Source of the DNA: Megalonaias nervosa
Taxonomy: Eukaryota > Mollusca > Bivalvia > Unionida > Unionidae
Direction: 5' to 3'
DNA length: 64,000 bases
NCBI GenBank assembly: GCA_016617855.1
Contig: JAECUM010091481.1
Location: 32,396 to 96,395 of the forward strand
The position numbers and the translations under genes were made by a program. This document shows, in pieces, positions 5,160 through 64,000 of this stretch (position 1 is its first letter; each line of letters starts with the position of its first letter). The notes below the pieces were generated by a model. It was not told the origin of the DNA, made no database searches, and saw nothing but the letters and a program-made list of their open reading frames with translations.

Positions 5160-5164
5160 CTTAT

Positions 5165-6313: not shown

Positions 6314-6379
6314 ACGCTCCAAAGGTACAAGTGTAATGTCTCTCCAAGATAGTGTGTCATTTTTAAGTTCTTGCCAACC

Positions 6380-6640: not shown

Positions 6641-6660
6641 ATCCAAATGTTTAACTAAAC

Positions 6661-17271: not shown

Positions 17272-17289
17272 TATTTATTTATCGTTTGA

Positions 17290-18000: not shown

Positions 18001-18019
18001 TTTTTATGCAAAATAGTAT

Positions 18020-19521: not shown

Positions 19522-19545
19522 TATCAGATCGCTGCGATTTAATTT

Positions 19546-20327: not shown

Positions 20328-20376
20328 ACATATTTTCTGAAAGATTTGACAACAAAATGATACAACCTCAGATATA

Positions 20377-20745: not shown

Positions 20746-20795
20746 CTTCGCTATAATTGATGACAAAATTTTGTATAACCTAAATAAATAAAAAA

Positions 20796-22355: not shown

Positions 22356-22374
22356 TCTATAATCGTTATATAAG

Positions 22375-22791: not shown

Positions 22792-23006
22792 GTAATCGAT
22801 GGCAACAATTTTATCTGACTAATAAATATAATGCCAAAACGAAAAACAGCAACGAAAAGAAAGACAACGACGAAAAAAAGACACGACAGCGAAAAGGTGG
22901 ATTTCTTCCAATAGCCCCGTTACTAGCGGGATTGGCAGGAAGTCTATTGCCAGGTCTGTTAGGACGAGGACGAGGATTAATGTTGCCAGGAACAAGGCTG
23001 CGTTAA
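22788..23006 (+). CDS. Small core-peptide-like protein (pX-like), frame unclear
   Basis: The frame from the overlapping ATGA at 22788 encodes 72 residues ending in RKGGFLPIAPLLAGLAGSLL and an arginine/glycine-rich tail, a membrane-active peptide pattern typical of Polintons. A second ATG at 22831 in the +1 frame starts MPKRKTATKRKTTTKKR, which looks like a more natural basic leader but ends after 27 codons. Either an indel separates leader and tail, or the 22788 start is genuine. The 3' end overlaps the protease reading frame. Confidence 0.5.
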   Translation: MSNRWQQFYLTNKYNAKTKNSNEKKDNDEKKTRQRKGGFLPIAPLLAGLAGSLLPGLLGRGRGLMLPGTRLR

Positions 23007-23422
23007 GTAATTTTGAGATACTTGACAAACTAAAAAATGTAAAACATTTCAGTGGAGTTTACTCCAAAGATGAACTTATGGCGATTCCAGCGCAAGCGAC
23101 ACCATCGTGTGTTATAAATATACAGGATTTCAATGACGGATCTGGCACACATTGGGTAGCTGTTTTTGATAACAATTATTTTGACTCGTTCGGAATTCCA
23201 CCGAGCGACGCAGTAAAAAAATATATGAGTAAAAAGAAAATAATAAATTATTCGTCTAATCAAATTCAACCAGTTGGAACTTCCGCTTGTGGATATTATT
23301 GCGTAATGTTCATCAAACAGATGACAAAAAATCCAGATTTTTTAAAGTTTATTTTGCAATTTGATAAAAGACCTTCTCACGCCAATGATGATATTGCATT
23401 TAATTTTTGTAAAGCTACCTAA
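22985..23422 (+). CDS. Adenain-like cysteine protease
   Basis: The sequence holds the catalytic landmarks of the adenovirus-type maturation protease: GTHWVAVF (His), FDSFGIPP (acidic residue), and QPVGTSACGYYC (Gln and Cys). It cleaves precapsid proteins in Polinton-like viruses. The first ATG is at 23078, but in-frame sequence with family character (LSNFEIL, GVYSKDEL) extends upstream to about 22985 without an ATG, within the end of the pX-like gene. The N-terminus is thus lost, expressed from a non-ATG start, or reached by frameshifting. Confidence 0.85.
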   Translation, partial: ARNKAALSNFEILDKLKNVKHFSGVYSKDELMAIPAQATPSCVINIQDFNDGSGTHWVAVFDNNYFDSFGIPPSDAVKKYMSKKKIINYSSNQIQPVGTSACGYYCVMFIKQMTKNPDFLKFILQFDKRPSHANDDIAFNFCKAT

Positions 23423-23460
23423 AGATTGCAATTAATTTTATCTAAACTCACTGATATACA

Positions 23461-23626
23461 ATGTCAACATATTGTCTTAAATGTAAAACTAAAACAGAAA
23501 ATAAAGACGAAAAAACAGAAAAAAACAAAAAATAATAGAATAATGCTGAAAAGTATTTGTGCAATCTGCGGAAGAAAAAAAAAGTATGTTTTTGCCAAAA
23601 ACAAGCGGAGCGGGTTACCCTCCTGA
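23461..23626 (+). pseudogene. Zinc-ribbon protein (DUF5679-like), frameshifted
   Basis: ATG at 23461 starts MSTYCLKCKTKTEN, giving the first CxxC; the frame stops at about 23537 in a run of A-rich codons. The second half, NNRIMLKSICAICGRKK with the second CxxC, continues in another frame to 23626. Together they match the small zinc ribbons found in Polintons and other viruses. The break is in an A-rich stretch. Confidence 0.65.
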
Positions 23627-23667
23627 CGTTGTAAGGGATATTATTTTAGTAGACGACTAAATAAATA

Positions 23668-24180
23668 ATGACATGCGGCTGCGATTGCGATAGAGATTTA
23701 TGTCTCGAGCAAAATAAAATTGTTACATATTGCCAGAAATGCAAAAACAGAGAAATAATTGGAACAGGTATAGATATACATAAATTAATTGGCAAATTGC
23801 CGAGACCAAAAGGCGGTTGGACATTGCCAGGCCATAAATATACAGGTCCATGGAATCCTCTTGATGAACAACTTGACGAAAACGATAATCCGCTGCCAGG
23901 ACAAGAGCCTTACAATCAAGTTGACGCAATAGCAATGCGTCATGATATCTGCTATAGAGATATTGAACTTCCAGACAGCGATCAAAATAAACACAGCTGC
24001 GATAAAGTAATGTTAGACGAACTTCGTGAAATGAAACCTGTAAATATGCGAGAACGTGTTGACCGAAGGCTGGTCCAGGGTTTTATTGGAGCAAAATATA
24101 AACCTGGACTCGGAAAAGAATTATATGATGATCTTGCCGTAGAGCTACACAGACCTAAAAAAAAAGTTTCCGCGACGTAA
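23668..24180 (+). CDS. Parvovirus-type phospholipase A2-like domain
   Basis: 170 residues. YTGPWNPLDEQ resembles the calcium-binding loop (with W where a glycine is usual) and QVDAIAMRHDICYRD contains the HDxxY catalytic motif of parvoviral-type PLA2 domains. In parvoviruses this enzyme lets virions leave endosomes. In many invertebrate Polintons the same domain is fused to the integrase; here the frame changes at the nine-A run 24157-24165, just where the integrase starts in the +1 frame. The N-terminus has four close cysteines (TCGCDCDRDLC) that may bind zinc. Confidence 0.8.
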   Translation: MTCGCDCDRDLCLEQNKIVTYCQKCKNREIIGTGIDIHKLIGKLPRPKGGWTLPGHKYTGPWNPLDEQLDENDNPLPGQEPYNQVDAIAMRHDICYRDIELPDSDQNKHSCDKVMLDELREMKPVNMRERVDRRLVQGFIGAKYKPGLGKELYDDLAVELHRPKKKVSAT

Positions 24181-25065
24181 AGTTGTCGCAAATGCCGTTG
24201 ATGACATCTTGGCGATAGATTTAGTTGATATGTCAAATCTAGCTCAATATAATGTTGGCGCTGATGGCGCTCCAAAAAGATATCTTTTTAATGATGTAGA
24301 TGTTTTTAGCAAATATGCGTTTAGTATACCCGTTTCGGATAAAACAGGGACCTCGATGACTGATGCGCTAAAACAAATTATTGTCAACACAGAAAGAAAA
24401 CCAAACAGAATCTGGACTGATCGTGGAGCAGAGTTTTTTAATAAAACATTCGAGCAGTTTTTGGAACAAAATAACATTAAAAATATGTTACAGGAAACGA
24501 GGGAAAAAGCGTCATTGTCGAGCGATTTAATCGCACACTAAACGAAAAAATCCATAAATATTTAACAGCTAAAAACACGAATAAATATATTGACTATTTA
24601 CAGAAAATTGTTACCGAGTATAATAACACAAAACACAGATCCCTTTCGCTAGGCAAAAGGAAAATGTCGCCAAACGACGCGATTTCAAATCCAATACCAG
24701 CAAACGAAAACATGTACCGACGACACAAATTTAAAGTTGGGGATAAAGTTAGAATTTCGCTGACAAAAAAAACATTTGAAAAAGGATATACTCATAACTG
24801 GAGCGAAGAAGTATTTGTTGTTGATAAAGTACTTTTAACAATGCCAGTTACATACTCGTTGAAAGATTTATTAGGTGAGCCTATAACTGGCAGTTTTTAC
24901 GAGCAAGAACTTCAGAAAACAGAACAAGATGTATTTGTTATTGAAAAAGTTATTAAAAAGCGCGGCAACAAAAGTTTAGTCAAATGGCGTGGATATAGCG
25001 ATAAATTTAATAGTTGGGTACCAACTAAGTCGATTTCATCGACTGCGATTTCATCGACTGAATAA
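24166..25065 (+). pseudogene. Retrovirus-type integrase with chromodomain, frameshifted
   Basis: DILAIDLVDM carries the first catalytic aspartate, RIWTDRGAEFF the second, and the glutamate block (VERFNRTL) follows in another frame, so the frame changes at about 24500. The last part (24664-25065) has the GDKVRISLTKKTFEKGY SH3-like segment and a chromodomain (VFVIEKVI...VKWRGYSDKFNSWVP). Integrase inserts the linear genome and the chromodomain may target chromatin. The end overlaps the convergent VLTF3-like gene by 41 bases, in a short tandem repeat (ATTTCATCGACTG). Confidence 0.88.
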
Positions 25066-25522
25066 TATTATTATAAATTTCCTCATATTTTATTAGTACT
25101 GACTTACATTTTACTGGTTTGCATAAAGAAATTAAATGTGATTTTCTCGCATCATCAACTGGCATTAAATTAAATATTTTAACAAAAATAAAATCGTATT
25201 TTATATTTCTTTGTTGTCCAGTTATTTTTACGTTTAAAAAGGGTTTTATAAGCTGCCAAAATATTTGATGCTCTGCGATAGTAAAATTAAATTTTATTAT
25301 TTTTTTAGCAATATGGTACTTAACATCATATCGCCCAGTTGTTGGTCTGCTTAATTTTTTTTTACTAACAACAACATCATCTTCTTCATCGTCATAGTTA
25401 TACAAAATATCTTTTTCAGTATAATCAGCAAATATATCACTAATAATATTTTCTGATGTAACATTAGAAACTGAAACAAAATCTCCTGAATATAGCTCAG
25501 TCAGTCTCTCACTCAAGCTCAT
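25025..25522 (-). CDS. Possible late transcription factor (VLTF3-like)
   Basis: 165 residues. An acidic linker (YDDEEDDVVVSKKK) precedes a segment with RNIKYDFIFVKIFNLM, which resembles the RKNFLSYSYVLHKF-type strand of poxvirus VLTF3-like proteins encoded by some Polintons and giant viruses. The usual N-terminal zinc/helix region is short, so the assignment is tentative. The C-terminus comes from the same 15-base repeat that ends the convergent integrase gene. Confidence 0.4.
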   Translation of the reverse strand: MSLSERLTELYSGDFVSVSNVTSENIISDIFADYTEKDILYNYDDEEDDVVVSKKKLSRPTTGRYDVKYHIAKKIIKFNFTIAEHQIFWQLIKPFLNVKITGQQRNIKYDFIFVKIFNLMPVDDARKSHLISLCKPVKCKSVLIKYEEIYNNIIQSMKSQSMKST

Positions 25523-25560
25523 TATTATAATAATCTTTTATCTAATTAATAAGTAATAAG

Positions 25561-25842
25561 ATGTTCGAAGAAACAAAATATCATCAGCCAGTTAATATAC
25601 TAAATCGCAAAGAATTATCTGAGGCAATTCGAGCTTGTTTATTGGGACATAATTTTTATTTTGTTGATGTTATCATAACATTAGGTGATTCCGACAAATT
25701 TTTATTAACAGCAGCGGACAAAATAAAACTCGATACGAATAAAATGATGACGTTACGATTTAATCGCGACGATGTCACGGAATTTAGTCATAATTGTCTT
25801 ACTCGAAATGATATAGAAAATATTATTAATTATCATATCTAA
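25561..25842 (+). CDS. Unrecognised 93-residue protein
   Basis: Complete ATG frame, mixed alpha/beta composition, no membrane segment and no motif I know. It lies divergently from the VLTF3-like gene with 39 bases between, so the two may share a promoter. Confidence 0.45.
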   Translation: MFEETKYHQPVNILNRKELSEAIRACLLGHNFYFVDVIITLGDSDKFLLTAADKIKLDTNKMMTLRFNRDDVTEFSHNCLTRNDIENIINYHI

Positions 25843-25912
25843 AACTAAATCTATCAAATGTCATCATTGACGTTGCTGATTTTCTTTCACCATCAGCTAC
25901 ATCTTTTACTCG

Positions 25913-26496
25913 TCATGTATCAATTTTATGATATTTTCCAGCAGCTGTTATTGATTTAAATTTTATTTCTTTAAAAGTTTCGAGATTTATTGAGATAACT
26001 GATTTTGGATTTTTAAAATTAGAACCATCAGAACCGGCTCCACGTCGACTATTTTCTTTTGGCGTAATCAAATCCAAATTTTCCAGACGATTATCGGTTT
26101 TAATTTTGTTAATATGATCGATAACTAAACTATTAGGTATTAGTCCGTTAAAAGTTTCAAACACAAAACGGTGTGACATATAACCAACTTGGTTAGTTTT
26201 TATACCACTTACCATTACATGTAAATAACCAGTATTATGTAAATTTCCTAATACTTTTTTAGTTTTTTTTTATGTCTAATAACTCCTTGGTCATTTGTCT
26301 CATATAGAACTAACACTGGATGGGGTTGAAATTCATTTTGTAATCCTAAATTTTCAATATTATCATCACCAACTGTGCCATTTGCTCTATATACTCGTTG
26401 TCCTTTTGGAATATCGCCGCAAAACAAAGTATAAATAAAATCTTTTCTAAACATTTTAATTCTTTCTGCATTATCGTCTTTTACTGAAATTAACAT
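25913..26496 (-). pseudogene. HNH endonuclease with NUMOD-like end, frameshifted
   Basis: The frame from 26496 encodes FIYTLFCGDIPKGQRVYRANG...DDNIENLGL, an HNH-like module lacking the key histidines. It ends at 26248, and from about 26260 another frame goes on with VGYMSHRFVFETFNGLIP and SLVIDHINKIKTDNRLENL, a canonical HNH_3 module with the His-Asn-His site. A NUMOD1-like segment (VISINLETFKEIKFKSITAAGKY) closes the protein. The frame change sits at the nine-T run 26263-26271. Such enzymes are homing endonucleases in phage and giant-virus genomes. Confidence 0.78.
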
Positions 26497-26689
26497 GCCA
26501 TTAATTAAATGCAGTGAATTAAGTAAAAATTTTAGATAAAAAGACTAAAACTCACTGATTATAAGTTTTATAGCCAAAAAATTAAACCAAATTTTTACAA
26601 TGTAAAATCTAAATCACATATGATATGTTAGATAACTTACAAAGATTTTAAACTAAGCTGGAACAGTATTATCTTTCTTTTTAAAAAGG

Positions 26690-27139
26690 TTATACTTCTT
26701 GACCAACAGATAGCACTTCCACACTTGCTATCAAGTAATATGTGCTATCATGATTATATAACGAGAATTTAACTCTACCAGATACTTTACGACGACACTC
26801 AAATAATTCTTTCAACGCTATCTTACTGAGAAGATACTTACTACCTTTTGCAAAAACCTTTGACCTGTCCAAGTCTATACTAATTTTTGTGTACTGCTGC
26901 TGGCTGATTGGATTATGTAAATTATTATATTTCAATGCAAGCTCGTCTCGTAAACTTTCGAGATAACTAAAGTATTTTCTGTCATCTGATCTAATAAGGG
27001 ATAGTTTGATTCTGTCAAGTTTACTAAAACAAATACCTGAAATTTCATCATTAAATTCAAATGATAATTGTTGGCTATTGACCATTATTTTTTTTTTGTT
27101 GCTATTAACTCCATCTGCTAATGTTAAATTTTCAAACAT
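26690..27139 (-). CDS. Unrecognised 149-residue protein next to polymerase
   Basis: Intact frame starting 12 bases after the end of the polymerase remnant. Predicted strands near the end (GRVKFSLYNHDSTYYLIASVEVL) and basic patches could suit a nucleic-acid-binding protein, but I know no family. Position implies co-expression with polymerase. Confidence 0.45.
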   Translation of the reverse strand: MFENLTLADGVNSNKKKIMVNSQQLSFEFNDEISGICFSKLDRIKLSLIRSDDRKYFSYLESLRDELALKYNNLHNPISQQQYTKISIDLDRSKVFAKGSKYLLSKIALKELFECRRKVSGRVKFSLYNHDSTYYLIASVEVLSVGQEV

Positions 27140-27151
27140 TATTTCTAATGT

Positions 27152-29490
27152 TTAGACAAAATTAATTGTATAATGTCCAATTGCTAGAGTCTTAATTCCG
27201 TCACTGCAATATCTTTTATCATCAAAATTACTTAGTCCACGTTTTATAATCGTATCTGTTTCAAGTTTATGATGATTTGTTCTTATGACATTAGTTTTGA
27301 TAAAACTGACGCTATTGTTTAGTGCTGCTTTAAAATCGTCAAAATTCATCATCTTTTTCACGTATCCTCGAGGAATACCTTTAGCTTTTTTTTGTAAGTT
27401 TATTGTCATCTAATATAACAGCATACATTTTGATTCTTAATCCAACAAACTCTCTCACCGGCATAAACATAAACTCATCTTTCATTTTTCCAATAACATT
27501 CTTATTTGAGTTATCTTGAAATCCACTACACGCTGGATAATCTGATAAATCGAACAGACTTTTATTATTGTAAATATCCTCATAGACATCTTCACATTTT
27601 ATATTATAAACTAGCGAGTCCGTATCAGTAAATAACAACTCCGAATTTGGCCATTGCTTTTTGGTAAAATTGTAGTGAAAATTATACATCAGCCACTTCG
27701 ATATATCAAGTACAGCTGCACCAACATAAATCGGTTTATTTAACTTTAAATTTGTCTTTCGTCGTTGTATTGCAACAAGATTTTTATTAAATATTTTCAT
27801 ACTAACAAAACCATCATCGTTAACTAATTTATTTCTGCGACTAATATCATTGACAATTTCTATAGAAACCCTCCTCCGAATATTTTCCATCGTCTTACCG
27901 AACACCGAGTTATTCATTAACTTGAAAAAGTTTTTCTCAAAGTCGGTCTTAGCCACGGCACGACGTTTTGTATTTAGATCAATATAATTTGCCATCCACT
28001 TCGACTGATTAAACTTTAGCACGCGATGGACCTTTCTCAGAATTAGTCCAGCATCTACTGCTTCCTTTAAATTTTTGTAATGTATAACATAATTTCTTTT
28101 ATCTAACAAATTTGGAACTAGCTTATTAACAATCGAATTTTTTGATGTCGTCGTTGCTCGTTGTTCAGGCGATAATAAATTATAATTAATCATCATTGAC
28201 TCTGCGCAAAACGGATAATCGTTATGTAGATCATGTAGCGAACTAGGATAATCTAGGTCAACTTCAACAAAATATGAGATATCTGAAAAATCTATATGAA
28301 TTTTTCTAGGTAAATCATTATCAGTTTCTTTAAGAAATTGATCTGGAGTTATCCAATGAAATCCACCGTGTGGCATTGGCTCTGACATGGCCCAGCCATA
28401 CAAATTCACACAATCTAGATAAATAATGTAACTCGACGGGAGATTTTTATCATAATTTTTCAGATATTTGTTATTAGCGGCTGCATATTTCTTTGTTATA
28501 ACGCTAATTCCGCCTCTGATATCTTTTTCAATAAAGTTAAACATATCCACATCTGTCAAGAGATCTAATTCTATTTTACTCGTTTTTAGTAGAGCGTCCC
28601 AAGACAACCCTGGAGCGGAATAATACCAACAGGGATCTAATCCATAATTTGCATGACTAACTTGACGAAAACTTTCGAAAACATCTGCTAGCAATAATAC
28701 ATCTGTTTTCAAATATATATCGTGATAATCACCAAATGTTTTACAACCAAATTTATTCCAGATATCTTGTGCATATTTATATTCGTCATCTGTGATATTT
28801 TCGTTTTTGAGTTGCGAGTAAAATTTATCTTTGTCAGGCAGAGAAGTTTCGTTAAATCTGCTCCAGTCGTCGAGGTACTCGTACGGAAAGATACCTTTTT
28901 TTGTCAAATCGATATAATTTTCACCAAAGCAACTTTTTAGGTTAGCGAAATTACTGCCGGCGCTTGTAGCGCTGTTGACAAGCTCATCTAATGATGCTGC
29001 CATAAATTGCAGGCTGTCAATAAAGCGTAATTTGCAGAGCGTCACTGACATATACTTTTCAAAATTATTTGGAATACATTTTATTACGTTATTTAGTTTT
29101 AGTTTAGCTTTAATATTTTAATCACCAAAAGCTTCTACAATGATATGACTATCATAACCGCGAAAGTTATGTAAAACTACAGGAATAAAATCTGGAGCAT
29201 GAAATTTTAAATTGCAACTGTTATGAGCTGCTCCGCGATATTGGCCGGTCAAATGACAATGATCTCGTACCTTGGAATCGTCAAGTAACTTTTCACAAAT
29301 ATGACAATTAACTGCCTCATCGAAATCGAGTTGTTGTTTAGACGTTATTTTCATTAGAGCTGTTTTAAATAATCTGTTAGAAATTTTATTAACCTCGACT
29401 ATTAAATTTTTTAGTAACCACACGGCTGGATTTTCACCTCTATATAACTTTATCGGAGATGAAAATTTATCACTGGCGCAACAAACTGGT
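27152..29490 (-). pseudogene. Protein-primed family B DNA polymerase, broken and 5'-truncated
   Basis: From the right: an endonuclease-VII-like zinc segment (CHICEKLL...RDHCHLTGQYRGAAHNSC), the ExoI-like VLHNFRGYDSHI block, then palm motif A (YLDCVNLYGWAMS), motif B (KLMNNSVFGKTMEN) and motif C (TDTDSLVY). The C-terminus (GIPRGYVKKM...) is in another frame from 27409 on. Breaks: an in-frame TAA at 29118-29120 and a frame change at the eight-T run 27386-27393. Family character ends at about 29490, so the N-terminal 300 or so residues are missing. Confidence 0.9.
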
Positions 29491-30423
29491 CCAACTCCCA
29501 ATGGGTGCTCTACTAACTTAGCTATCTGCATTGTTGCCGTTAGCCAGTTCCTGCAACCCATACCCTCCTCCCTTACTTTCTTTTAAGTCATACATTTTTT
29601 CCCTTTATTCTTGCAGAAGACCTTGTAAAAGAAAACAAGATTATTCATTCTGATATATTTTGCAGTCAGAGAAAAGCATGGGAAGGACTTAATAAAAAAA
29701 CTGAGGATTTCTGCCACCCTTCCTTCCTTTTCTTTTTGAATTTATTCTTTCTGTCCGTCAGCGCCATTGTGTAAATAATATTACAAGAAAGACAGACAAA
29801 TTAATTAGAAATTAATAAGAAATTAATTGGAAAAGAAAATCTGTATGCGCATCTCCAACTTGACATGCACAGCTTTTATAGGATGTCGACATTTAGAACC
29901 GATTTTGGCGACATTTAATCACAACATAGAAGAATAGTGACCGCTAGTAAACGACCCGGGACCTGCATTTGGGGGACATCTGAGGACCAGCAACAACAAA
30001 GCACCAGCAAAAATGCAGTCTATCATTTTATTTGGGAATCCTCAGGTTGAAGCACAGATTGGACCAGATAAGACAGAATTATCAAGCAAATGCTCCACAG
30101 CCCGTATGTAAGGTATCTGACTTAGCAGATAAATAAACGAAGCAAATACGGTAGATCTTGATATCAAGGGCAAATTCGGGGAGTTCTGTTTATGTAAGGG
30201 AGTGTATTTTTTACATTGGCAAGTGTATCAATGAAAGATGGTAATCGTCATGATAATTCAGTAACATTTTCTAAATTATTCAATGCTTTGCCCCCTTTCA
30301 GTCTATTCAGCAACAAAGAAGTGTATATCTCACCTGCTGAGTTTGTTTTTGATGGACATCTTGACTTTGACGATGAAGTATATTAAAGCAATTCAGCTAC
30401 AGGTATTTGCCTTCCCTTTGCTT
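29491..30423. other. Non-coding stretch right of Polinton A
   Basis: No gene or terminal inverted repeat recognised. The minus-strand frame of polymerase runs a further 24 codons here, but without family similarity; this looks like flanking DNA or an insertion. Confidence 0.5.
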
Positions 30424-30514: not shown

Positions 30515-30768
30515 TTTATATTGATGTCTACCATTGGGGCATCCTGCCGCAGACGTGTAACATCATGTCCCACCCAGTCACATTATCCTGACACCAGGCC
30601 GACCAGTCCTAACACTAACCTCTTAATGTTGAGCGCCCAGCGAGGCAGCTGTAAGTACCATTTTAAAAAGTCTTTTGGTATGACTCGAGCGGGTTTTGAA
30701 CCCGCGACCTCCCGCATCCGAGGCGGACACTCTAACCACTTAAGTACCGGGGCTTTCCCCAATTATTA
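30424..30768 (-). mobile_element. tRNA-derived SINE, copy 2, with target-site duplication
   Basis: Same head, body and tail as copy 1, on the minus strand; the tail is a 77-base (GT)n run as read on the plus strand (30436-30512). The 11-bp CCCAATTATTA occurs at both ends (30424-30434 and 30758-30768). The head has box B GGGTTCAAAACCC-like changes, so this copy is older or silenced. Confidence 0.93.
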
Positions 30769-31505: not shown

Positions 31506-31816
31506 TACCTATAGTAATTGGATCGCTCCGGTGGCCTAGTGGTTAGAGCATCGGCCTCGGATGCGGGAGGTCGTGGGTTCGAACCCCATACCAAAGACTG
31601 TTAAAAATGATACTAGCAGCTATCTCGCTTGGCGCTCAGCATTAATAGGTTAGTGTTAGGACTGGTCGGCATTGTGTCAGGATAATGTGACTGGGTGGGA
31701 CATCATGCTACATGTCTGCGGCATGATGCCCCAGTGCTGGGCGTCACTATAAACTGTCACACTGCAGACATCGTAGCGATATGACTGAAGAATTGTTAAA
31801 ACTACGTTAAAAATCC

Positions 31817-48689: not shown

Positions 48690-48850
48690 ACAGAACCCCC
48701 TGGGACCGTATAGCCCCAAGAAAAAAAAGCACACCCTGGGACCGTATAGCGTCAATGGAAATTGTGTAGAGTGACTAGCACACCTTGGGACTGTATAGCG
48801 TCAATGGAAATTTTGTATAGCGACTAGTATACCCTGGGTCTGTATAGCGA
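48690..48850. repeat. Tandem repeats near the left edge of Polinton B
   Basis: Four diverged units contain CCTGGGACCGTATAGCGTCAATGG-type sequence at about 48693, 48735, 48781 and 48830, with spacing near 42-49 bases. Terminal tandem repeats occur in Polinton terminal inverted repeats, but the right end is outside the window, so this cannot be tested here. Confidence 0.7.
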
Positions 48851-48873
48851 CAAGAGGAATGGAACAGGTGGCA

Positions 48874-48923: not shown

Positions 48924-49054
48924 GGCTACCTGAGAGAGGGCTATAGACAAACACGAATCAAGAGTATTCGTGTTTTTAGTAGAGTAAGGGTTTTATATAT
49001 TCGTTTGGGTTGGAGACAAAATGAAAATTAAGATCTTTTCGAGGCATTGGAAGT

Positions 49055-49070
49055 GGCCCTGAAAAGGGCC
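49055..49070 (-). terminator. Histone-type 3' stem-loop (gene at 49103-49357)
   Basis: On the minus strand GGCCCTTTTCAGGGCC fits every position of the metazoan histone stem-loop consensus (6-base-pair stem, 4-base loop). It lies 32 bases after the stop codon. After 13 more bases comes CGAAAAGAT, a purine-rich motif like the histone downstream element that pairs with U7 snRNA. The 5' flank is CAAACAAC, also as in histone genes. Confidence 0.85.
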
Positions 49071-49102
49071 GTTGTTTGTTATGTTATGTTAACACCATTC
49101 CG

Positions 49103-49357
49103 TTAACATACAGGACATCGCATAGGTCTTCTTTTCTTCCTCAAATTTCTCAAAGCTTGTCTTAAACTGTGTCTCACTTCTGGTCCGTAGATGAGAGTCC
49201 GCTTAAGACAGCCTTGTCTTTCCACATAACATCTTCTTTTCCAAATAGTGGCACCGGTGATCCGGATGACAGTCCATTTTGTTTTCACATACATGGGTAA
49301 GTCCGTACGGAACAGCATCGATGATACCAAAGTAGAGGATTCTACGTTGATCAACAT
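49103..49357 (-). CDS. Unrecognised basic 84-residue protein with histone-type 3' end
   Basis: I do not recognise the protein and see no histone fold. Basic, with an arginine/lysine-rich second half (RHSLRQALRNLRKKRRP), several cysteines and a closing CPVC. It is transcribed away from the 49593 gene; a TATAAATA box on the minus strand lies about 50 bases before the ATG. The histone-type stem-loop follows 32 bases after the stop. Position at the element end and shared promoter suggest an early regulatory gene. Confidence 0.6.
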   Translation of the reverse strand: MLINVESSTLVSSMLFRTDLPMYVKTKWTVIRITGATIWKRRCYVERQGCLKRTLIYGPEVRHSLRQALRNLRKKRRPMRCPVC

Positions 49358-49592
49358 CTTCTCTGTGACGAGAACAGGTGAAGGGAATGAAGTGAACCGC
49401 GTTTATTTATAGTGGAAGACCGGATCGAAACGGATTGAAATGGATCACCAATCCCAACACGCGTTACAAAATTCAGTCACTTCGCGGAGTCTGTCTTCCA
49501 ATCCGAAGAGAGCTACCTGTGACGTCACATTTCCTATATAGGCACACTAGCGTCTGTGCGCAGTGAATCGATGCGGTATTGTTTTGTGAAAC
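49358..49592. promoter_or_regulatory. Divergent promoter with two TATA boxes and a CRE
   Basis: TATAAATA on the minus strand (49404-49411) faces left; TATATA (49535-49540) faces right. TGACGTCA lies at 49520-49527, 8 bases before the right TATA box. The 235-base intergenic region thus looks like a compact bidirectional promoter. Confidence 0.7.
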
Positions 49593-50231
49593 ATGACGGA
49601 ACCTAAGAAGACAATGAATTGGGGTGCACCGGCTGTGGAGACGAGAAGTAATGGTATAGCAGCAGCTACCAAAGTGAACACAGTGCTACTTCCCGAAGAG
49701 GTTGATTTCAACTGGGATTTAGTAGATTTTTTATCTTCTTCCCAAGAATTTGTTCCGGTACCAGTACCTTCGCCACTTTCTCCTTCTTTACCACGTGTCG
49801 ACGATTTTAAACAAAGACAGAAAGAAGAATTGGAGAAATTTTTACAGCAGCAGAAAGAAGCAGAGCAAGCATTTCTTCTTGAACAGCAACAGCGAGAAGA
49901 AGAAGAAGAGGCAAGAAGGAAACGACAGGAAGAAGAAGCAGTAGAGAAGAAACAAAGTCTAGGAGAGAAGGAGAACAGCGAAAGTCAAACGGTCACGGTA
50001 CTCTTGGACATTTTGGCCGAGTTAAGAAGTCTGAAACAAATGTATCAGACTTCTTTATTACGACCCAAGAGAAAAAGACCTTCCCGAGCCAAACAACCTA
50101 ACCCTGTGACTACACCAGAGATACCATCCCTAGTGATTTCTACTAAATCATTGACAGGAGCAAGTCCACAAGTAGACCTTGGCCGTGGCAAAGGCTTAAG
50201 GCAGTTAAAGCGAATTGATTCTCGTTCCTGA
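49593..50231 (+). CDS. Unrecognised coiled-coil protein with histone-type 3' end
   Basis: 212 residues: a low-complexity P/S/V region (residues 50-70), a strongly charged Q/E/R-rich coiled coil (about 70-125), a short leucine-rich helix (VTVLLDILAELRSL), then a basic nuclear-localisation-like stretch (RPKRKRPSR) and a basic tail. No family recognised; a DNA- or protein-binding regulator is plausible. TATATA is 53 bases before the ATG, and a histone-type stem-loop begins 33 bases after the stop. Confidence 0.65.
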   Translation: MTEPKKTMNWGAPAVETRSNGIAAATKVNTVLLPEEVDFNWDLVDFLSSSQEFVPVPVPSPLSPSLPRVDDFKQRQKEELEKFLQQQKEAEQAFLLEQQQREEEEEARRKRQEEEAVEKKQSLGEKENSESQTVTVLLDILAELRSLKQMYQTSLLRPKRKRPSRAKQPNPVTTPEIPSLVISTKSLTGASPQVDLGRGKGLRQLKRIDSRS

Positions 50232-50263
50232 GTTTATTCTAAGGAAAAAAACAAACACTCAAC

Positions 50264-50279
50264 AGTCCTTTTAAGGGCT
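50264..50279 (+). terminator. Histone-type 3' stem-loop (gene at 49593-50231)
   Basis: AGTCCTTTTAAGGGCT fits 14 of 16 positions of the histone stem-loop consensus; the two differences are a compensated first pair (A-U for G-C). The 3' flank ACCCA is the classical one after which histone RNA is cut. Twelve bases after the stem comes CGAAAAGAG, almost the same purine motif as behind the other stem-loop. The CGAAAAGAG region itself forms a small hairpin (ACTCT/AGAGT). Confidence 0.8.
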
Positions 50280-50539
50280 ACCCAATACTCTCGAAAAGAG
50301 TGACTATTCATTTTGCCAAAATCAATTAAAACTCAAAATCCCTTCTTTAACCCTATGATGTACGTGTTGTGAGTGTATGAGTGTAGGTCCTTATTAATCT
50401 AAACAATCAAAACCAAAAGACACTTACGTTTTTCAGTCTGGTCTATTCTGGTACAAATATTTACAATTCAATGTCACAACACAACATAACACAACACTTT
50501 TTAAAAAAGTTCATAGACTTCTTCTGTTTCTTTTTTCTT
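50280..50539. other. Convergent intergenic region
   Basis: Between the ends of the 49593 and 50540 genes. Apart from the stem-loop and purine motif I see no polyadenylation signal for the minus-strand gene. Confidence 0.4.
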
Positions 50540-50977
50540 TCACTCTCTCTGTCTTTTCAATTTCTTCACTTTCACACTTTTTTCCTCCTCCTCTTCTTCC
50601 TCACTTTTTTGGCTTCTTCTTTTCTTTTCTATCTTCTCTTTCTGAACGTGTCGGGGTTCTTCCTTTGCCGAGGGCAGCTTTTCTTCTTCCTCCTCCTCTT
50701 GCTCCTGTTCTTTCTTAGGACACTCTGAAGACCAATGTCCTTTCTCTTGACAATGATAACAGGTATCCTGAGTTTTGTTTCTTTTGACAATGGCCTTGCT
50801 TCTTTGACGGTCTCGACATTCTGTAGCCCAATACCCTTTCTTTTGACAGATATAGCAAGTATCTTGACTTTTGTCTCGAAAGGAAGGAGAGTAGTCCGTC
50901 GGCTTGTCTGAAGAAAACTTTCGTATGACACCTCGCAAAGCTCTAATCAGAAGTTCGATCTGTGTGGGTTCTTCCAT
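50540..50977 (-). CDS. CCHC zinc-knuckle protein
   Basis: 145 residues: an N-terminal helix, then two zinc knuckles, CYICQKKGYWATEC (Tyr where the ligand His belongs, so probably weak) and CYHCQEKGHWSSEC (complete CX2CX4HX4C), then a long tail alternating E-rich and K-rich segments. Such knuckles bind single-stranded nucleic acid as in retroviral nucleocapsid or CNBP proteins. TATATATAAA on the minus strand (51032-51040) is about 60 bases before the ATG; the gene is divergent from polymerase. Confidence 0.75.
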   Translation of the reverse strand: MEEPTQIELLIRALRGVIRKFSSDKPTDYSPSFRDKSQDTCYICQKKGYWATECRDRQRSKAIVKRNKTQDTCYHCQEKGHWSSECPKKEQEQEEEEEEKLPSAKEEPRHVQKEKIEKKRRSQKSEEEEEEEKSVKVKKLKRQRE

Positions 50978-51111: not shown

Positions 51112-54100
51112 ATGAAACGATCGCATCATTTCGAAAAGAAAGGAGAAGAAAGTAAGAGGCAGAAACGTGATTTATCGCCTCGCACAGTAGCTGAAGTCTT
51201 GGCACAAATTCATGCCAGCGATTTTGAAGATGAGATGAGTGAACCAGAATCGAAGCCTAAAGAGTCTACACCAAATCAAAGTCCATTATCATCAGTAAAC
51301 CCTGAAAAGTACTACCATATTCGGGAGACGGACAAACGCTCTTCCAGAAAATTTAGAACCACAGCCTACACGTACGCAGTGAAGTTTAAAGATTTCAAGT
51401 CTGACGTACCCTTGGAAAAAGCAGAAGGGTTCATCACCGATGTGTGGGATTCTTTGTTAACCACACTAAAACGGCAATGTCAAGCCAAAGAAGACGATCG
51501 CTTGAGACTTTCTATTCATCACGACAATTTGAAGTCTCCCGTTTGGATCGAGTTTAGCAGTCCAACAGAATTGACACCTTCCAAAATCATGGACAAGATT
51601 CAACACGTACAACAATCCAATGACAAATTTCACATCACGGACGGAAAAGCGAACCTGTACATGACCCACGTGTCTCTTCCCCAAGGGACAGGTAAAAAAA
51701 AGTTGATGTTGGTAGACAACTTGCGTAACCTCAAGCGTAGCCTCGTCCAAATTAACAATCCAAAAGACAAGATGTGTTTAGCCCGTGCCATCGTGGTGGG
51801 ACAAACGTATGCCGACAAGAACGACACGGCAGAATGGAAAAGAGCCTGGAAAACTATTCAACAATCGGACCGAGCCAAACAACGAAAAGAAGCAGAACTC
51901 CTGTTACAGCAAGCGGGGTTAGCTAAAGACACACCCTGTGGCATTCCTGAAATGCAAAAATTGCAAGACGTCTTGGCTCCACGTTACACCTTGAAAGTTC
52001 ACCCTCAAGAAGTGCGCGGACCTCTGTTGTTTCGAGGTAAAGATTTTAAAGACGGAAAATACATTCACGTCTATCATCACGACGAACATTTTGATGCCAT
52101 TACCAGTATCACTGCATTCCTGGGATACGGTTATTACTGTGAGAAATGTGACTATGGCTATAACAATCGAGAGCAACATAAGCATTGCGGATCAAAATGT
52201 AAGGGATGTTTAGCCTCTACACCCTGTCTGGACGAAGGACAAGAACGAGTGCATTGCTCTGTTTGTCAGCGCACGTTTGTCAGTCCTGCCTGTTACCAAC
52301 AACACCTAAAGACGCAAGGTTCACAGCAGAAATGTGCTTGTCAGCTCTTGAGATTGTGCCCTACTTGTGGACAAGGCATACGTACCAATAGTGTCAAGTT
52401 ACACATTTGTCGAGGAAAGAAACGATGTCACATTTGTCGCCAAATCGTGGACTTGGAACACCAATGCTACATTCAAAAATACCATTCTAAACATGAAGAA
52501 GAAGAAGATAAGGACCAGAAGAAGAAAGGGAATTTCATCTTTTTCGATTTCGAATGCATGCTGGCATTTACATTCCTAATTTCTGCGTGGCTCACCGAGC
52601 GTGTGAGAAGTGCATCCAAGAGCCTATCTTGACTCATTGCCCTCACTGCAGCAAAATTCCTGGAGGACGTGAAAAAATCTTTCGAGGACCGAACACACTA
52701 GCCGATTTTGCCCAATGGATCTTAGACCCTATCGACGAAACGTGGAGCCAAGAAGATATCGAACGTTACGGAGATTGTCATCGCCATGCCACGGTGATGG
52801 CTCACAATTTCTCGGGATACGATGGACAATTTCTGTTGAGATACTATACGGAACAAAGTACCGAACGTCCGAAAGTAACTTTGAACGGAGCCAAAATCAT
52901 TTCCATGCAAGTGGGACAAGTACAGTTTAAAGATTCAATGAGTTACTTGGCTATGCCTTTGAGCCGCATGCCTAAAACGTTTGGCATGACAGAAATGGCC
53001 AAAGGCTATTTTCCGCACTTTTTCAATACCGAAACCAATCAACACGTCGTTCTACCCCATTTGCCTGAGGCTCACTACTACGACCCCGACAACATGCGTA
53101 CCGAACAACGAGAAGCTTTCTATGCATGGTACCAGACTCACGCTTCGGACCCTTTTGACTTTCAAGAAGAAATGTTAAAATATTGTCGTTCCGACGTAGA
53201 CATTTTACGTCGCTGCTGTGGAAAATTTCGAGAACTGTTCATGGAACACGAAGGGATCGATCCTTTGAAAGAAGCCTGTACCATTGCCAAAGCGTGTTCC
53301 TTAGTGTATCGTCAACGATTCATGCCCGAAAACACCCTAGCTGTCATTAGTCCTCAAACGACCAATTTTGTCAAACGTCAATACTCAGTCAAAGCTCTAC
53401 GCTGGTTACATCACTTGTGTGACAAGGAAGACAAATGGATCCAACACGCTCGCAACGGAGGAGGCGAAAAGACCATCGGAAGGTATTCAGTAGATGGCTG
53501 GGACTTAGAAAACCCCAAGATTGTGTACGAGTTTAACGGGTGCTTATTTCACGGATGTCCCATCTGCTACCCTCAACGTGACACTAAAAACCAGTTTTTA
53601 CAACGGACCATGGAAGACTTGTACCAGGCCACTTGTCAGCGACGCTTGAAGTTAGAAGAGCAAGGATACCAAGTAGTGGAAATGTGGGAACACGAGTACG
53701 ATCAGCGATTAAAAACCGATCCCGAGTTTAAGCGCATCGTGGAAAGTTACAAGCTGGTGGACCCTCTGAACCCACGGGACAGTTTGTACGGAGGACGGAC
53801 GAATGCCACCTGTTTGCTGTACCAAGCCGACGAAGAGAAAGGAGAAGAAATCAAATACTTGGACGTGTGTTCTCTGTATCCGTACGTGTGCAAATATTGC
53901 CACTTTCCCACAGGGCACCCACAATTGCTGACGGAACACATCGACGTGGACAATATTCGACAATACGAAGGATTGATCAAGTGCAAAGTCTTGCCTCCCA
54001 CGAACTTGTATCATCCCGTTTTACCACATCATTGCCAAGGAAAACTGATGTTTCCCTTGTGTCGTACTTGTGCTGAAACGTGCAACCAAGACCACCCTTG

Positions 54101-55190
54101 TCAGCACACTCAGGAAGAACGCGCCTTGACGGGAACGTGGGTCAGCGTGGAATTGTTTAAAGCTCTGGACTTGGGATACCAACTGTTAGAAGTGTACGAA
54201 ATTTACCACTTTCCCAAGACAGAAAAATACCACAAGGGCGACGATTCTCAAAAAGGCATTTTTGCAGACTACGTGAATGCCTTTTTGAAACTGAAACAAG
54301 AAGCTAGCGGATATCCTTCCTGGTGTCACACTCCCGAAGACCAAACAAAGTTCAAAGAGAAATACTGGAAGCAGGAAGGCATCACTTTAGACCACGTGGA
54401 GAAAAACGAAGGAAGGCGATCGTTTGCCAAAGTGATGTTAAATTGTTTGTGGGGTAAAATGGCACAAAGACCGTGTTTACCCAAGACGGAGTATTTGACA
54501 GAACCTTTCCGCTACTTGCAGATGATTCACGACAAAACCAAATACATGAAACACGTGGACGTCGTTCGTGAGGACTTACTCTTAGTCAATTACGAAGAAG
54601 AACTGAACTTTGTAGAAGCCGACGAATTTGGAAATGTCATCATTGCGGCTTACGTGACAGCCCATGCTCGCTTAAAACTGTACGAAGCTTTAGAACTATT
54701 AGGAGATCGTGTACTGTATTTTGACACGGACAGTTGCATCTACATTGATCGCCTGGGTCAACCTCACCCTGTCATCGAAGGAGACCGTTTAGGAGCCTGG
54801 ACGGATGAGCATCCTGACGACAAGATTCTCAGTTTTGCAAGTGGCGGTCCCAAAAATTACGGTTACGAATACCGTAACCCACAAGGAGATGTGCACACGG
54901 AGTGCAAAGTGAAAGGATTGACTCTCAATTATCGCACCAGCCGAGTGGTGAACTTTGGCGTCTTGAAAGAAGCCTTGCAGTCTGGACAGGATGGAAATTT
55001 TAAAGTGACCACCCACGAACCGCATAAGATTGTACGTTTACCCACACACCAAATCGTCAGTCGACCCTTGGAAAAAGTTTATCAAATCGTGTACCAGAAG
55101 CGAGTTCGGCTTCCCAATCACTTCACTTTACCGTACGGTCATGCCGATATTGGTCAGCATATAAAAAGGGACAACGTTCAAGGTCGATAG
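51112..55190 (+). pseudogene. Protein-primed family B DNA polymerase with one frameshift
   Basis: The first frame (51112 to about 52560) has a charged N-terminus, a terminal-protein-like region, several Cys/His zinc segments (CEKCDYGYNNREQHKHC, CSVCQRTF, CPTCGQG, CHICRQ) and ExoI (FFDFEC). The second frame (from about 52554 to 55190) continues with HRACEKC, ExoII (HNFSGYDGQFLL), palm motif A (YLDVCSLYPYV), B (KVMLNCLWGKMAQ) and C (YFDTDSCIYI). Thus one frame change, in GAATGCATGCTGG just after ExoI, splits an otherwise complete enzyme of normal length. It replicates the element from a protein primer. Confidence 0.92.
55160..55167 (+). promoter_or_regulatory. TATA box of the BIR gene
   Basis: TATAAAAA inside the end of the polymerase frame, 55 bases before the ATG at 55223. 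Comparable boxes precede other B genes at 57205, 58012, 58780 and 59312. Confidence 0.55.
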
Positions 55191-57268: not shown

Positions 57269-57997
57269 ATGGCTACCTCTACTGTCTCTGCTCCCTCTTC
57301 CTCCACTGTCAAAGTCATTGACGAACACGTAGATCGGACTAGTTGGGAGGCCTTGCATCTTCGCCATCCCTTTAACATGCTCATTGCCGGACCGAGCGGT
57401 TCAGGCAAAACCGAATTTGTCAAACGTTTGATCGAACATAAACATCATTTGATCGATCGTCCTCCTCAACGTATCGTGTGGTGCTATAAAGAGTGGCAAT
57501 CGGCGTACAGCCTTCTGCGAGAAAGTCATGGCGATTCCATCGTCTTTGTGGAAGGCATTCCTGTCGAAGACGACGGAATCGTGTCTGACCCTAGTCAAAC
57601 TCATTTGGTTATTTTTGACGACATGTTAGGAGAAGACGAAGAAGAAATTAAACTGTGCTTTACGCGCAAAGGGCATCATCGTAATGCCAGTGTCATTTAC
57701 ATTACCCAAAATTTGTTTCAACAAAGTAAAGCCCATCGTACCATCAGTCTCAATGCTCATTACTTGGTGTTGTTTAAAAGCCCTAGAGATAAATCGCAAG
57801 TACAAGTCTTAGCCAAACAGTTAGGAACGCCTTGGCTGATTCATGCGTACGACGATGCTACTCAAACCCCACACGCTTATTTACTCGTGGATTTAAAACC
57901 CACTACTCCCGATTATTTGCGATTTCGTACCCATCTGTTTCACCCCTGGTGCCAAGACGGAGGACCTATCGTGTACACGTCTCCGTCGTCGACTTAA
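57269..57997 (+). CDS. DNA-packaging ATPase (FtsK/HerA type), intact
   Basis: 242 residues from ATG 57269, chosen over an upstream in-frame ATG near 57221 because it follows the TATA box at normal distance. Walker A GPSGSGKTEF near residue 41, Walker B HLVIFDDM near 110, YITQNLF sensor motif, and a basic patch (TRKGHHRNAS). Function as for the ATPase of Polinton A, but the proteins are only distantly alike. Confidence 0.92.
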   Translation: MATSTVSAPSSSTVKVIDEHVDRTSWEALHLRHPFNMLIAGPSGSGKTEFVKRLIEHKHHLIDRPPQRIVWCYKEWQSAYSLLRESHGDSIVFVEGIPVEDDGIVSDPSQTHLVIFDDMLGEDEEEIKLCFTRKGHHRNASVIYITQNLFQQSKAHRTISLNAHYLVLFKSPRDKSQVQVLAKQLGTPWLIHAYDDATQTPHAYLLVDLKPTTPDYLRFRTHLFHPWCQDGGPIVYTSPSST

Positions 57998-60066: not shown

Positions 60067-61176
60067 ATGGAGAAGGTGTTAACCAGCATTTACTACGATC
60101 CAGCTCATCCTGCTGGTTACGGAGGAGTTCAGAAATTGTATCGTGCTGCCAAAACTCGACTGAAAAGTATCCGTTTACCTCAGGTGCAACGCTGGTTACA
60201 AGAACAAGCCACGTACACCTTACACAAACCCATTCGACGAAAATTTTCCAGAAGTCGCACCCAAGTGGAGGGTATCGATCACCAATGGCAAGCCGATTTA
60301 GCCGATGTCTCTCATTTAGCCACCTACAATCGTGGCTACAAATATTTGTTTTGTGTCATCGACGTCTTTTCCAAATTTGCTTGGGTCGTACCATTGACTT
60401 CCAAATCGAGCAGTGAGTTAGTGCGAGCCCTCAAACTGGTGTTGAAACAAAGTGGTCGTCACCCTCTTCGATGGCAAACGGACAAAGGCACCGAATTTCT
60501 AAACCAAGCTTTCCAAAAAGAATTGAAGAAACGTGACATTCATTTTTTCACCACCGAGAATCCCGAAACCAAAGCCAGCATCGTGGAACGTTTTCAACGT
60601 ACCTTGAAAGAACGCATGTGGAAATATTTTACGCATCAACACACTCTCAAGTACATTGACGTCTTGCCACACCTCGTTCAATCGTACAACCAATCTTACC
60701 ATCGGAGCATTGGACGTGCCCCCCAAGAAGTGACTCCCGACAACGAAGTGACCGTCTTCGAGCGCCTGTTTGGACCGTCCACGACAGTGCCTGTCCCCAA
60801 GAAAGGTGGAGTGTTGGCCACGGGAGATTGGGTACGCATTGGCAAAACCAAACGCACTTTCGACAAAGGTTACTTACCCAATTGGACCACCGAATTGTTT
60901 CGTGTCACTGAACGTGTGCGTGGTCGCTATCCTCCCGTCTATAAATTAGAGGACATGAACGGGGAAGTGTTAAAAGGAACGTTTTACTTACCCGAGTTAC
61001 AACGTGTGACCAAAAAAGAAGACGACGTGTACGAGATCGAAAGCATTCTCGATCGAAGAACTCGTAAAGTAGGAAAGAAACGTGTCAAAGAAGTCAAAGT
61101 ACGTTGGAAAGGATATCCTCCCAGTTTTGACTCTTGGATCGACGCTTCGCAACTCATCGACTATAAAAAGAAGTGA
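60067..61176 (+). CDS. Retrovirus-type integrase with chromodomain, intact
   Basis: 369 residues, full length. An N-terminal helical region is followed by the DDE core: WQADLADVSH (Asp), LRWQTDKGTEFLNQ (Asp), ETKASIVERF (Glu); then the GDWVRIGKTKRTFDKGY SH3-like domain and a C-terminal chromodomain (YEIESIL...VKVRWKGYPPSFDSW). It would insert the linear element with short target duplication, and the chromodomain may direct it to marked chromatin. All catalytic residues are present. Confidence 0.95.
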   Translation: MEKVLTSIYYDPAHPAGYGGVQKLYRAAKTRLKSIRLPQVQRWLQEQATYTLHKPIRRKFSRSRTQVEGIDHQWQADLADVSHLATYNRGYKYLFCVIDVFSKFAWVVPLTSKSSSELVRALKLVLKQSGRHPLRWQTDKGTEFLNQAFQKELKKRDIHFFTTENPETKASIVERFQRTLKERMWKYFTHQHTLKYIDVLPHLVQSYNQSYHRSIGRAPQEVTPDNEVTVFERLFGPSTTVPVPKKGGVLATGDWVRIGKTKRTFDKGYLPNWTTELFRVTERVRGRYPPVYKLEDMNGEVLKGTFYLPELQRVTKKEDDVYEIESILDRRTRKVGKKRVKEVKVRWKGYPPSFDSWIDASQLIDYKKK

Positions 61177-62513: not shown

Positions 62514-62966
62514 ATGTATCCTGTGTACCAAGGAGATGCTCGACAGCGAGGACATGGTTTAGGTGATATGCTCAAATCGGCCTTTCGTAGAGTGGTTCCC
62601 ATTTTGAAACCGATGGTGACACGGAGATTGCACGCCTTAAAAGATGCCGCGTTGACGCACGGCAAAGAATTTCTCCAAAATGTCATCATTGACAAACAAA
62701 ACCCCAAAGAAGCTTTTTTGAGAGCAGGCAAAAATGTCTTGCTTCAAACGGGCAAAGACCTTTTGGGTCGGCGAGAAACTCCTATAAATGCCCTGGGCAA
62801 TGCTGAGTTAGGCATTCCTGCTTCCCTGACGCCACAGCAAGGACAAGGCAGAAAAAGACGACGAAAGTACCCCTTCAGAGGACTTCACGCCCCTAGAGCT
62901 AGAAAGACTAAGAAAAGAAAAACCGTCCGAGAGTTAGACGTTTTTGATTATTTAAAAAAAAGGAAA
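62514..62966 (+). CDS. pVI-like minor capsid protein, in frame with the hexon gene
   Basis: ATG at 62514 begins MYPVYQGDARQRGHGLGDM and an amphipathic helix (LKSAFRRVVPILKPM), then a middle region and a basic, nuclear-signal-like end (GRKRRRKYPF, KTKKRKTVREL). This is the Polinton counterpart of adenovirus pVI. There is no stop before the hexon-like gene: the frame runs on through an eight-A run (62954-62961) into MMHRESCACS. Normally these are separate genes. Confidence 0.7.
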
Positions 62967-64000
62967 ATGATGCACCGAGAGTCTTGTGCTTGTTCCAAGT
63001 CGGAACTGGATCTGTTTGCCATGCCACCCACCATGATGACGATGCAAGAATCCCAATGGGTGGAATTTCATCCCGTCTCCTCTTTGGTGGATTCCGCTCC
63101 CATCGAGTTTGAAATCAAAGGACAGCCCGAAGATTACATCGATCTGAATAATAGTTACTTGTATCTAATGCTGAAAGTGATCAAAACTGACAACACCAAT
63201 CCGGGAGACGATGCCGCAGTAGCTCCCGTCAACAATTTCATGCATTCCTTGTTCAGCGAAGTGGATTTGTACTTGAATAACAAACTGATCAGCAGTAGCA
63301 CGGATACTTACCCTTACCGAGCGTACCTAGAAAATCTCTTGACGTACGGAAAAGAGGCCAAGAATACTCATCTGGATGCTTGCGTGGTATGGAAACCTGA
63401 CACCGCAGGTGAGAACACGTTTAACGACAGAGCCCTGACAGCCGATGACGATCCTCACAATGTGGGTTTTAACGATCGTCGAAGAAAAATCCTGCAAGGT
63501 CGTAGTTTAGAACTGATGGATCGTTTGCATTTGGACATGTGGTTGCAAGAGAAGTATTTGCTGAACGGAGTGGATATTCGCCTGAGACTCAATCGCAGCA
63601 GTGTCGCTTTCCATTTGATGGCTCAAGCCAACGAGTACAAAACTATCATCCAAGAAGCCAGACTTTACGTGCGACGTGTAGAAGTGTTACCTAAAGCGGG
63701 AAACGACATCAGTCAAACATTGAGCAGATCGACTGCCAAATATCCGATACGACGTGTCGAAGTGAAAACATTCACCATTGCTGCTGGACTCCGATCCAAG
63801 ATCGAAGATCATCTGTTCCAAGGACAGTTACCCAAACGTTTAATCGTTGGTATCGTCAGTAATGCAGCCTTCAACGGAGCCCACGATCAAAATCCTTTCC
63901 AGCTTAAGCACTACAGAGTCTCCAAAATTGAAGTCAGTCGCGATGGCAAGACTTTGTGTACCAGACCCTTCGAACCTAACTTTGCCCAGAAGAATTACTT
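62967..64000 (+). CDS. Major capsid protein (hexon-like), 5' part
   Basis: About 345 residues are visible and the frame is open at the window edge. SKSELDLFAMPPT, VEFHPVSSLVDSAPIEFEI, VNNFMHSLFSEVDLYLNN, TYPYRAYLENLLTYG and LHLDMWLQEKYLLNGVDI are hallmarks of the Polinton double jelly-roll protein (often annotated as F54H12.2-like in invertebrates). It forms the shell hexamers. ATG at 62967 with a second at 62970. Confidence 0.93.
   Translation, partial: MMHRESCACSKSELDLFAMPPTMMTMQESQWVEFHPVSSLVDSAPIEFEIKGQPEDYIDLNNSYLYLMLKVIKTDNTNPGDDAAVAPVNNFMHSLFSEVDLYLNNKLISSSTDTYPYRAYLENLLTYGKEAKNTHLDACVVWKPDTAGENTFNDRALTADDDPHNVGFNDRRRKILQGRSLELMDRLHLDMWLQEKYLLNGVDIRLRLNRSSVAFHLMAQANEYKTIIQEARLYVRRVEVLPKAGNDISQTLSRSTAKYPIRRVEVKTFTIAAGLRSKIEDHLFQGQLPKRLIVGIVSNAAFNGAHDQNPFQLKHYRVSKIEVSRDGKTLCTRPFEPNFAQKNY

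Follow-up and report, generated by a model that had tools for sequence, protein, structure and literature searches.

Both genes of a divergent pair at the left end of an animal Polinton, g84 and g212, end in a histone-type 3' module that consists of a stem-loop and a U7-type downstream box, although neither encodes a histone. The histone stem-loop consensus is GGYYYTTYTNARRRCC, 16 nt with six pairs and a four-base loop. Histone mRNAs are described as being bound at the stem-loop by SLBP, while the CUCUUU of U7 pairs with an AAAGAG core; cleavage follows a CA that lies 5 or 7 nt past the stem-loop, and no poly(A) is added. Judged from the sequence, the mRNAs of the element's terminal genes are very probably SLBP/U7-processed, non-polyadenylated, S-phase mRNAs of the histone type, by the route proposed below. 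It also appears likely, with somewhat less confidence, that the whole terminal accessory gene set, five genes per element, is under the host histone-mRNA pathway with the replication and capsid genes left out, so that a genomic parasite reads the host cell cycle.

The element lies in a window (the whole stretch analysed, 64,000 nucleotides) of the Megalonaias nervosa genome and belongs to the adintovirus-type Polintons of animals, as indicated by its PolB, ATPase, integrase-chromodomain and probable capsid genes, which follow in that order a CCHC zinc-knuckle ORF to the right of the g84/g212 pair (Table 1). This 145-aa ORF (50540-50977, minus strand) is convergent with g212 and carries a long acidic/basic tail in addition to its CCHC zinc knuckles. 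PolB matched Pfam DNA_pol_B_2 (E 7e-45), and the named relatives among the 120 best of 1,866 matches were mostly from bivalves and some from other marine invertebrates. Relatives such as P0023 encode PolB in a single ORF of ~1,340 aa, and its split into two ORFs means that the window copy is at least partly decayed. The capsid candidate has the expected position and matches ORFs in other Polintons, but no Pfam family matched it. The window ends where contig C51889 of the 2.19-Gb host genome ends, so that the right end of this copy, where the second repeat would lie, is outside the sequence; terminal inverted repeats were present in 7/7 relatives compared.

Table 1. Features of the element, numbered from the first letter of the window
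Feature	Position	Strand	Description
Downstream box of g84, U7-type	49034..49041	-	CGAAAAGA; assigned by sequence and spacing
Stem-loop of g84, histone-type	49055..49070	-	GGCCCTTTTCAGGGCC; 32 nt past stop; Rfam 32.4 bits
g84, left-hand gene of divergent pair	49103..49357	-	ORF; 84-aa basic protein, pI 11.2
Shared promoter region	49358..49592		TATA boxes; one TGACGTCA
g212, right-hand gene of divergent pair	49593..50231	+	212-aa protein; 19 metagenomic homologues, 63-94% identical
Stem-loop of g212, histone-type	50264..50279	+	AGTCCTTTTAAGGGCT; 32 nt past stop; Rfam 24.3 bits
Downstream box of g212	50292..50299	+	CGAAAAGA, then G (AAAGAG core); assigned by sequence and spacing
PolB	51112..55190	+	Two overlapping ORFs in different frames (51112-52632, 52554-55190); no histone-type end
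Packaging-type ATPase	57269..57997	+	Pox_A32 match; no histone-type end
rve integrase with C-terminal chromodomain	60067..61176	+	Pfam; no histone-type end
Probable major capsid protein	62514..64000	+	Cut by window/contig end; ORFs of L012 and L017, 31% and 27%

The window has other features. The remnant of a second adintovirus-like element (4882-7993, minus strand) matches proteins of the element described here in its integrase (43%), in fragments of PolB and in two further ORFs. A third, different Polinton-like element (16075-29561) has its own ATPase, integrase pieces (24104-25020) and a double-jelly-roll capsid ORF (20796-22355), and no histone stem-loop was found in it. Tandem repeats of 49 bp lie just outside the g84 module (48728-48853), probably in the terminal repeat, and tRNA-like matches at 10981-11053, 30681-30753 and 31530-31593 may be tRNA-derived SINEs.

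A sequence-only reading had placed a stem-loop 32-33 bases past the stop codons of both genes. The stem-loops were present, but the distance, counted from the stop codons at 49103-49105 (minus strand) and 50229-50231 (plus strand), was 32 nt in each case. The reading's full match for one gene and 14 of 16 positions for the other were reproduced on recounting, with g84 at 16/16 and g212 at 14/16 consensus positions and 6/6 pairs in each. The outer G-C of the g212 stem is replaced by A-U and its third pair is U-G; folded in isolation, the stems gave -11.4 (g84) and -6.4 kcal/mol (g212). The U7-like box reported 12-13 bases behind each stem-loop was also there, with CGAAAAGA starting 13 nt (g84) and 12 nt (g212), and GAAAAGA 14 nt and 13 nt, past the stem-loop. 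The core of the box is AAAGAG in g212 and AAAGAT, one base off the U7 pairing core, in g84. A CA follows the stem-loop at 5 nt in g212 and at 7 nt in g84, and a hairpin spans the g212 box with no equivalent in g84.

When the whole window was searched with 4,227 Rfam families, the Histone3 scores in Table 1 had E values of 1.9e-5 (g84) and 0.02 (g212), both modules falling below the Histone3 gathering score of 34, and Histone3 had no other match in the window at E <= 10. The two 3' modules were alike over ~70 nt (score 53 vs 29 for the best of 2,000 shuffled pairs). Within the window, the g84/g212 pair was found only once, and a relaxed scan of its element part gave no further stem-loop with a box.

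Chance resemblance was assessed with 400 Mb of sequence simulated with the dinucleotide frequencies of the window. Per window, the expected number is 0.009 for a 16/16 stem-loop with six pairs and 0.52 for one of at least 14/16 with six pairs, so the g212 stem-loop alone is not rare. The expectation falls to 0.0045 per window for a six-pair stem-loop of at least 14/16 with AAAAGA behind it, and the g212 stem-loop is rare once the box, the sense orientation, the distance from the stop and the twin gene are counted. The patterns by themselves also match unrelated viral contigs; those matches (5 and 4) were taken as chance, as none lay by a Polinton gene, the ORFs being judged by eye. In the host genome, the exact consensus occurred at 10,556 places vs 677 for the reversed control, and CCTTTTCAGGGCCAC followed 4-14 nt later by GAAAAGA occurred 7,132 times vs 0. 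These counts and the simulation refute chance resemblance, and retention of the stem-loop in older loci, described below, also stands against it; we give it almost no probability.

Twenty stem-loops were sampled in list order among the 10,556, skipping contigs that had already been examined. Sixteen belonged to this Polinton family, by protein or DNA, and the other four had neither a match nor a box. A nearby histone gene was rejected as the source of the stem-loops: 0/20 lay by a recognisable histone motif, and no Pfam histone was found among the 20 window ORFs scanned. Many of approximately the first 100 matches listed formed divergent pairs ~1.2 kb apart with a third stem-loop 18.5-20 kb off. 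At C71 35803-37151, two stem-loops on opposite strands face each other ~1.3 kb apart, and these could be two elements side by side.

Loci chosen by protein rather than by stem-loop gave a similar picture. The g212 search of the host genome yielded 150 scored matches of 18,479 first-look candidates, and the best 30 of the 150, the window's own included, were young copies of 97-100% identity. Both stem-loops had six pairs in 30/30 of these loci, and GAAAAGA lay behind 57/59 stem-loops, one of the 60 having been dropped at a locus end. An older set comprised 20 loci hand-picked among the listed matches to the ..CHH right-end protein and spread over 76-91% identity. The stem-loop was in register in 18/20 (13 six-pair, 5 five-pair), register was lost in 2/20, and GAAAAGA was present in 16/20; the score reached by 13/20 of these loci was reached in 3/4,000 shuffles. 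In most of these copies the stem-loop, whose absence would have told against the sequence-only reading, was kept. For covariation, which that reading had named as support, the signal on three sequences was not above shuffles (155/500).

Twelve divergent pairs and eight far ends were taken from matches to the stem-loop pattern. The pair stem-loops were chosen by this pattern, and only their downstream features are independent; GAAAAGA was present behind 20/24. The 12 pairs correspond to g84 and g212 in related elements, matching at 56-77% for g84 and 72-93% for g212 over the aligned parts. The g84 module lies in the terminal inverted repeat in 7/7 relatives compared, and the far end of 7/7 elements compared has an inverted copy of it. 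In the 3/8 far ends with an open ORF of 188-220 aa (L071, L074, L077), this copy lies 11-17 nt past the stop of that ORF. Two other types of stem-loop were found at the right end. AGCCCTTCTCAGGGCT, which the pattern could not pick, was present in 7/8 far ends, with a five-pair variant in the eighth, and, in the 7 far ends in which the gene end was located, a stem-loop of this type lies 26-31 nt past the stop of a gene whose product terminates in ..RCHH or ..RCNH. An inner stem-loop, outside the reach of the search pattern, was present in 6/8 far ends (4 six-pair, 2 five-pair); the exceptions were L074, which probably begins beyond the site, and L076, where none was found.

Five histone-type ends, all on small terminal genes, were thus counted in 5/7 elements read at both ends, two ends being assigned to one element by inference from contig, distance and inverted repeats. 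C16, C161 and C181 had five with all pairs intact, C154 and C192 had five with one broken pair, and C176 and C74 had four each. Histone-type ends on two non-histone Polinton genes, as first suggested, are supported by the sequence tests, but "two" was too few. No other stem-loops were found between the capsid gene and the third stem-loop in stretches L078-L081, and none of the core genes read had a stem-loop with a box. Stem-loop variants mostly stay paired, with G-C or A-U as the outer pair and C-G, U-G or U-A as the third. The CA lies 5 or 6 nt behind the stem-loop in other relatives, some of which lack it.

The position of two modules in the terminal inverted repeats, where those of g84 and the far end are the inverted copies just described, raises the alternative that the stem-loops are DNA-level hairpins that serve replication, packaging or end recognition. 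However, three modules, that of g212 and the inner two of the right end, are not part of the repeats, and every module follows a gene in the sense orientation and has its box on the 3' side, in a form that matches a host histone gene. A function as DNA hairpins is accordingly regarded as extremely improbable.

The host gene that provides this comparison was found among 11 matches in a Pfam histone search. One (L105) is a host H2A gene with GGCCCTTTTCAGGGCC 41 nt past the stop and GAAAAGA 12 nt past the stem-loop, in the box AGAAAAGA; therefore, the host uses the signal on a histone gene. ATTAAA occurs 192 nt from this stem-loop. A histone stem-loop was also found in two other matches, at 30.7 bits in L102, whose listed ORF extends through it, and at 24.5 bits in L107; the other 8/11 had none. 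The H2A stem-loop scored 37.8 bits vs 35.5-37.0 for the five best element modules, which are indistinguishable from it by the Histone3 model.

A Histone3 search of related Polintons, which the sequence-only reading had recommended, gave a divided result. Among 11 modules of related elements, 5 were over the threshold, 5 scored 19.4-28.9 bits and 1 (the L074 ..CHH module) was not listed; an outer A-U pair or a UCUC loop is found in some element modules, whose scores are under the Rfam gathering threshold. The distant set consisted of 11 contigs with Polinton-like PolB from bacterial genome bins (L012-L022), probably eukaryotic DNA binned with bacteria. One of the 11, L012, whose PolB is 38% identical, had a Histone3 match (35.8 bits), and no histone-type module was found in the other 10, most of which are partial. 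The L012 stem-loop lies 28 nt past the stop of an 89-aa C2H2 zinc-finger ORF and is followed by AAAAAAGAG; beyond the stem-loop and box, no likeness to the downstream sequence in the window was detectable.

Two metagenomic proteins that run past the usual stop, P0015 (g212 family) and P0020 (g84 family), have tails that fit a stem-loop and box at the window spacing at 26 and 24 of 27 positions, a fit reached by 0/2,000 shuffled tails for each (best 23). The outer pair is necessarily broken in P0020, and one stem position of P0015, off the consensus, could be paired or unpaired. Past the box, both tails have YYVNCQ and both window modules have TTCATTTTG, so that the letters past the box agree within a lineage and differ between lineages. 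Such agreement would be expected from gene conversion, or if each module pairs with the U7 of its lineage. Further searches found little: PolB, g212, capsid and integrase queries had no relative in viral contigs, PolB alignment there gave 6 distant loci, none with a strong module match, g212 alignment in genome contigs gave no match, and a three-module model found, besides its own three, only matches of 15.5-17.9 bits (27 sources, 327 kb).

These comparisons bear on the suggestion of passenger modules, in which a histone 3' end captured a single time has no function and has been replicated along with the element. The copies in the genome share descent, modules within an element are alike, and the 30 g212-chosen loci are nearly identical, as expected of passengers. 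However, there are five modules per element, each in sense behind its own gene, the stem-loop persists next to a protein that is down to 76%, most variants preserve pairing, and L012 has the stem-loop and box without other detectable likeness downstream. A passenger origin is therefore considered very unlikely, though less so than DNA hairpins.

The strongest competitor of histone-type processing, itself unlikely, is that the stem-loop is present without histone-type cleavage, the transcripts being polyadenylated downstream and SLBP having only a role in stability or translation. Polyadenylation is possible because ATTAAA lies 45 nt past the g212 stem-loop and AATAAA ~70 nt past that of L012. 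However, the box, which is needed only for U7 cleavage, is at a fixed distance in most modules (57/59, 20/24 and 18/20), and neither AATAAA nor ATTAAA occurs within 300 nt behind the g84 stem-loop.

The products of the two window genes give few clues to their roles. No histone domain was found in g84 or g212 with Pfam. The g84 protein had no match in Pfam, PHROG, NCBIfam or PDB, has two metagenomic homologues (63% and 73% identity) and gave a structure model with a pLDDT of 52. The g212 protein, which had no match in phage records, consists mostly of a long predicted helix (69-154; pLDDT 66) together with a basic KRKR stretch. A TATA box lies 54 nt ahead of the start codon in g84 and 58 nt ahead of it in g212, so the leaders are probably short. 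The CRE-like TGACGTCA occurs near the histone-ended genes, three times in the left end of the window element (48874, 48916, 49520) and three times ahead of the L012 zinc-finger gene (7874, 7889, 7952). Whole-sequence counts were 4 in the window and 4 in L012, with shuffled means of 0.78 and 0.08. These sites may be marks of shared early promoters.

The proposed pathway would start from the complete histone-type 3' ends of g84 and g212 at the left and, in relatives, of three more genes to the right of a protease-like gene. Host SLBP would bind the stem-loop of the terminal-gene transcripts, and the U7 snRNP would pair with the GAAAAGA(G) box and direct a cut just behind the stem-loop. The mRNAs would then be exported and translated without a poly(A) tail, and stable expression of the terminal genes would be confined to S phase, as with histone mRNAs. 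Candidate benefits to the element are timing with host replication, a saving of space or escape from poly(A)-linked control. We infer the processing by SLBP and U7, the absence of poly(A), the S-phase timing and the benefit by analogy with histone biology. A search of the host genome for a U7 snRNA gene found none, and the same search found none in control genomes either.

A histone signal on the terminal genes of a virus-like element suggests a tie to the host DNA-replication cycle. If the proposal is correct, histone mRNAs are joined by a second class of protein-coding transcripts in animals that have histone ends, and a genomic parasite makes use of it. A mobile element with the histone ending on several non-histone genes would break an accepted rule and show a new route by which such a parasite can track the host S phase, and the thousands of natural variants in one genome would teach what SLBP and U7 accept.

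The sequence-only reading knew of no such report for Polintons. No description of histone-type ends on terminal Polinton or adintovirus genes was found in the largely open-access literature covered, but the absence is not complete, since a 2025 paper lists six histone 3' UTR stem-loops among the Rfam matches in 8,300 Polinton-like virus genomes (PMC12220804). Its text gives a bare count, with no gene, downstream box or interpretation, and the count was made at the gathering cut-off, under which neither window module would have been included. Adintoviruses are described as having a PolB with an OTU-like N-terminal domain, a recognisable hexon and an rve integrase-chromodomain (PMC11071296). The small C2H2 zinc-finger gene ahead of the L012 histone-type end recalls, by description, the "Ziftr" genes of some adintoviruses, for which the passages on them discuss no 3' end; the term "stem-loop" does not occur in the main text of that paper (PMC11071296).

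The element resembles Polintons/Mavericks and adintoviruses in its PolB, packaging-type ATPase, rve integrase-chromodomain and probable capsid, and in the terminal inverted repeats of its relatives, and differs from those described in the histone-type ends of its terminal genes. The modules resemble the metazoan replication-dependent histone 3' end (RF00032 and the downstream element) in the stem, the loop, the ACCCA-type flank and the purine box with an AAAGA core at the usual distance, as well as in the short 3' UTR and the open, intronless ORFs. Unlike the histone system, however, they sit on the non-histone genes of a mobile DNA element.
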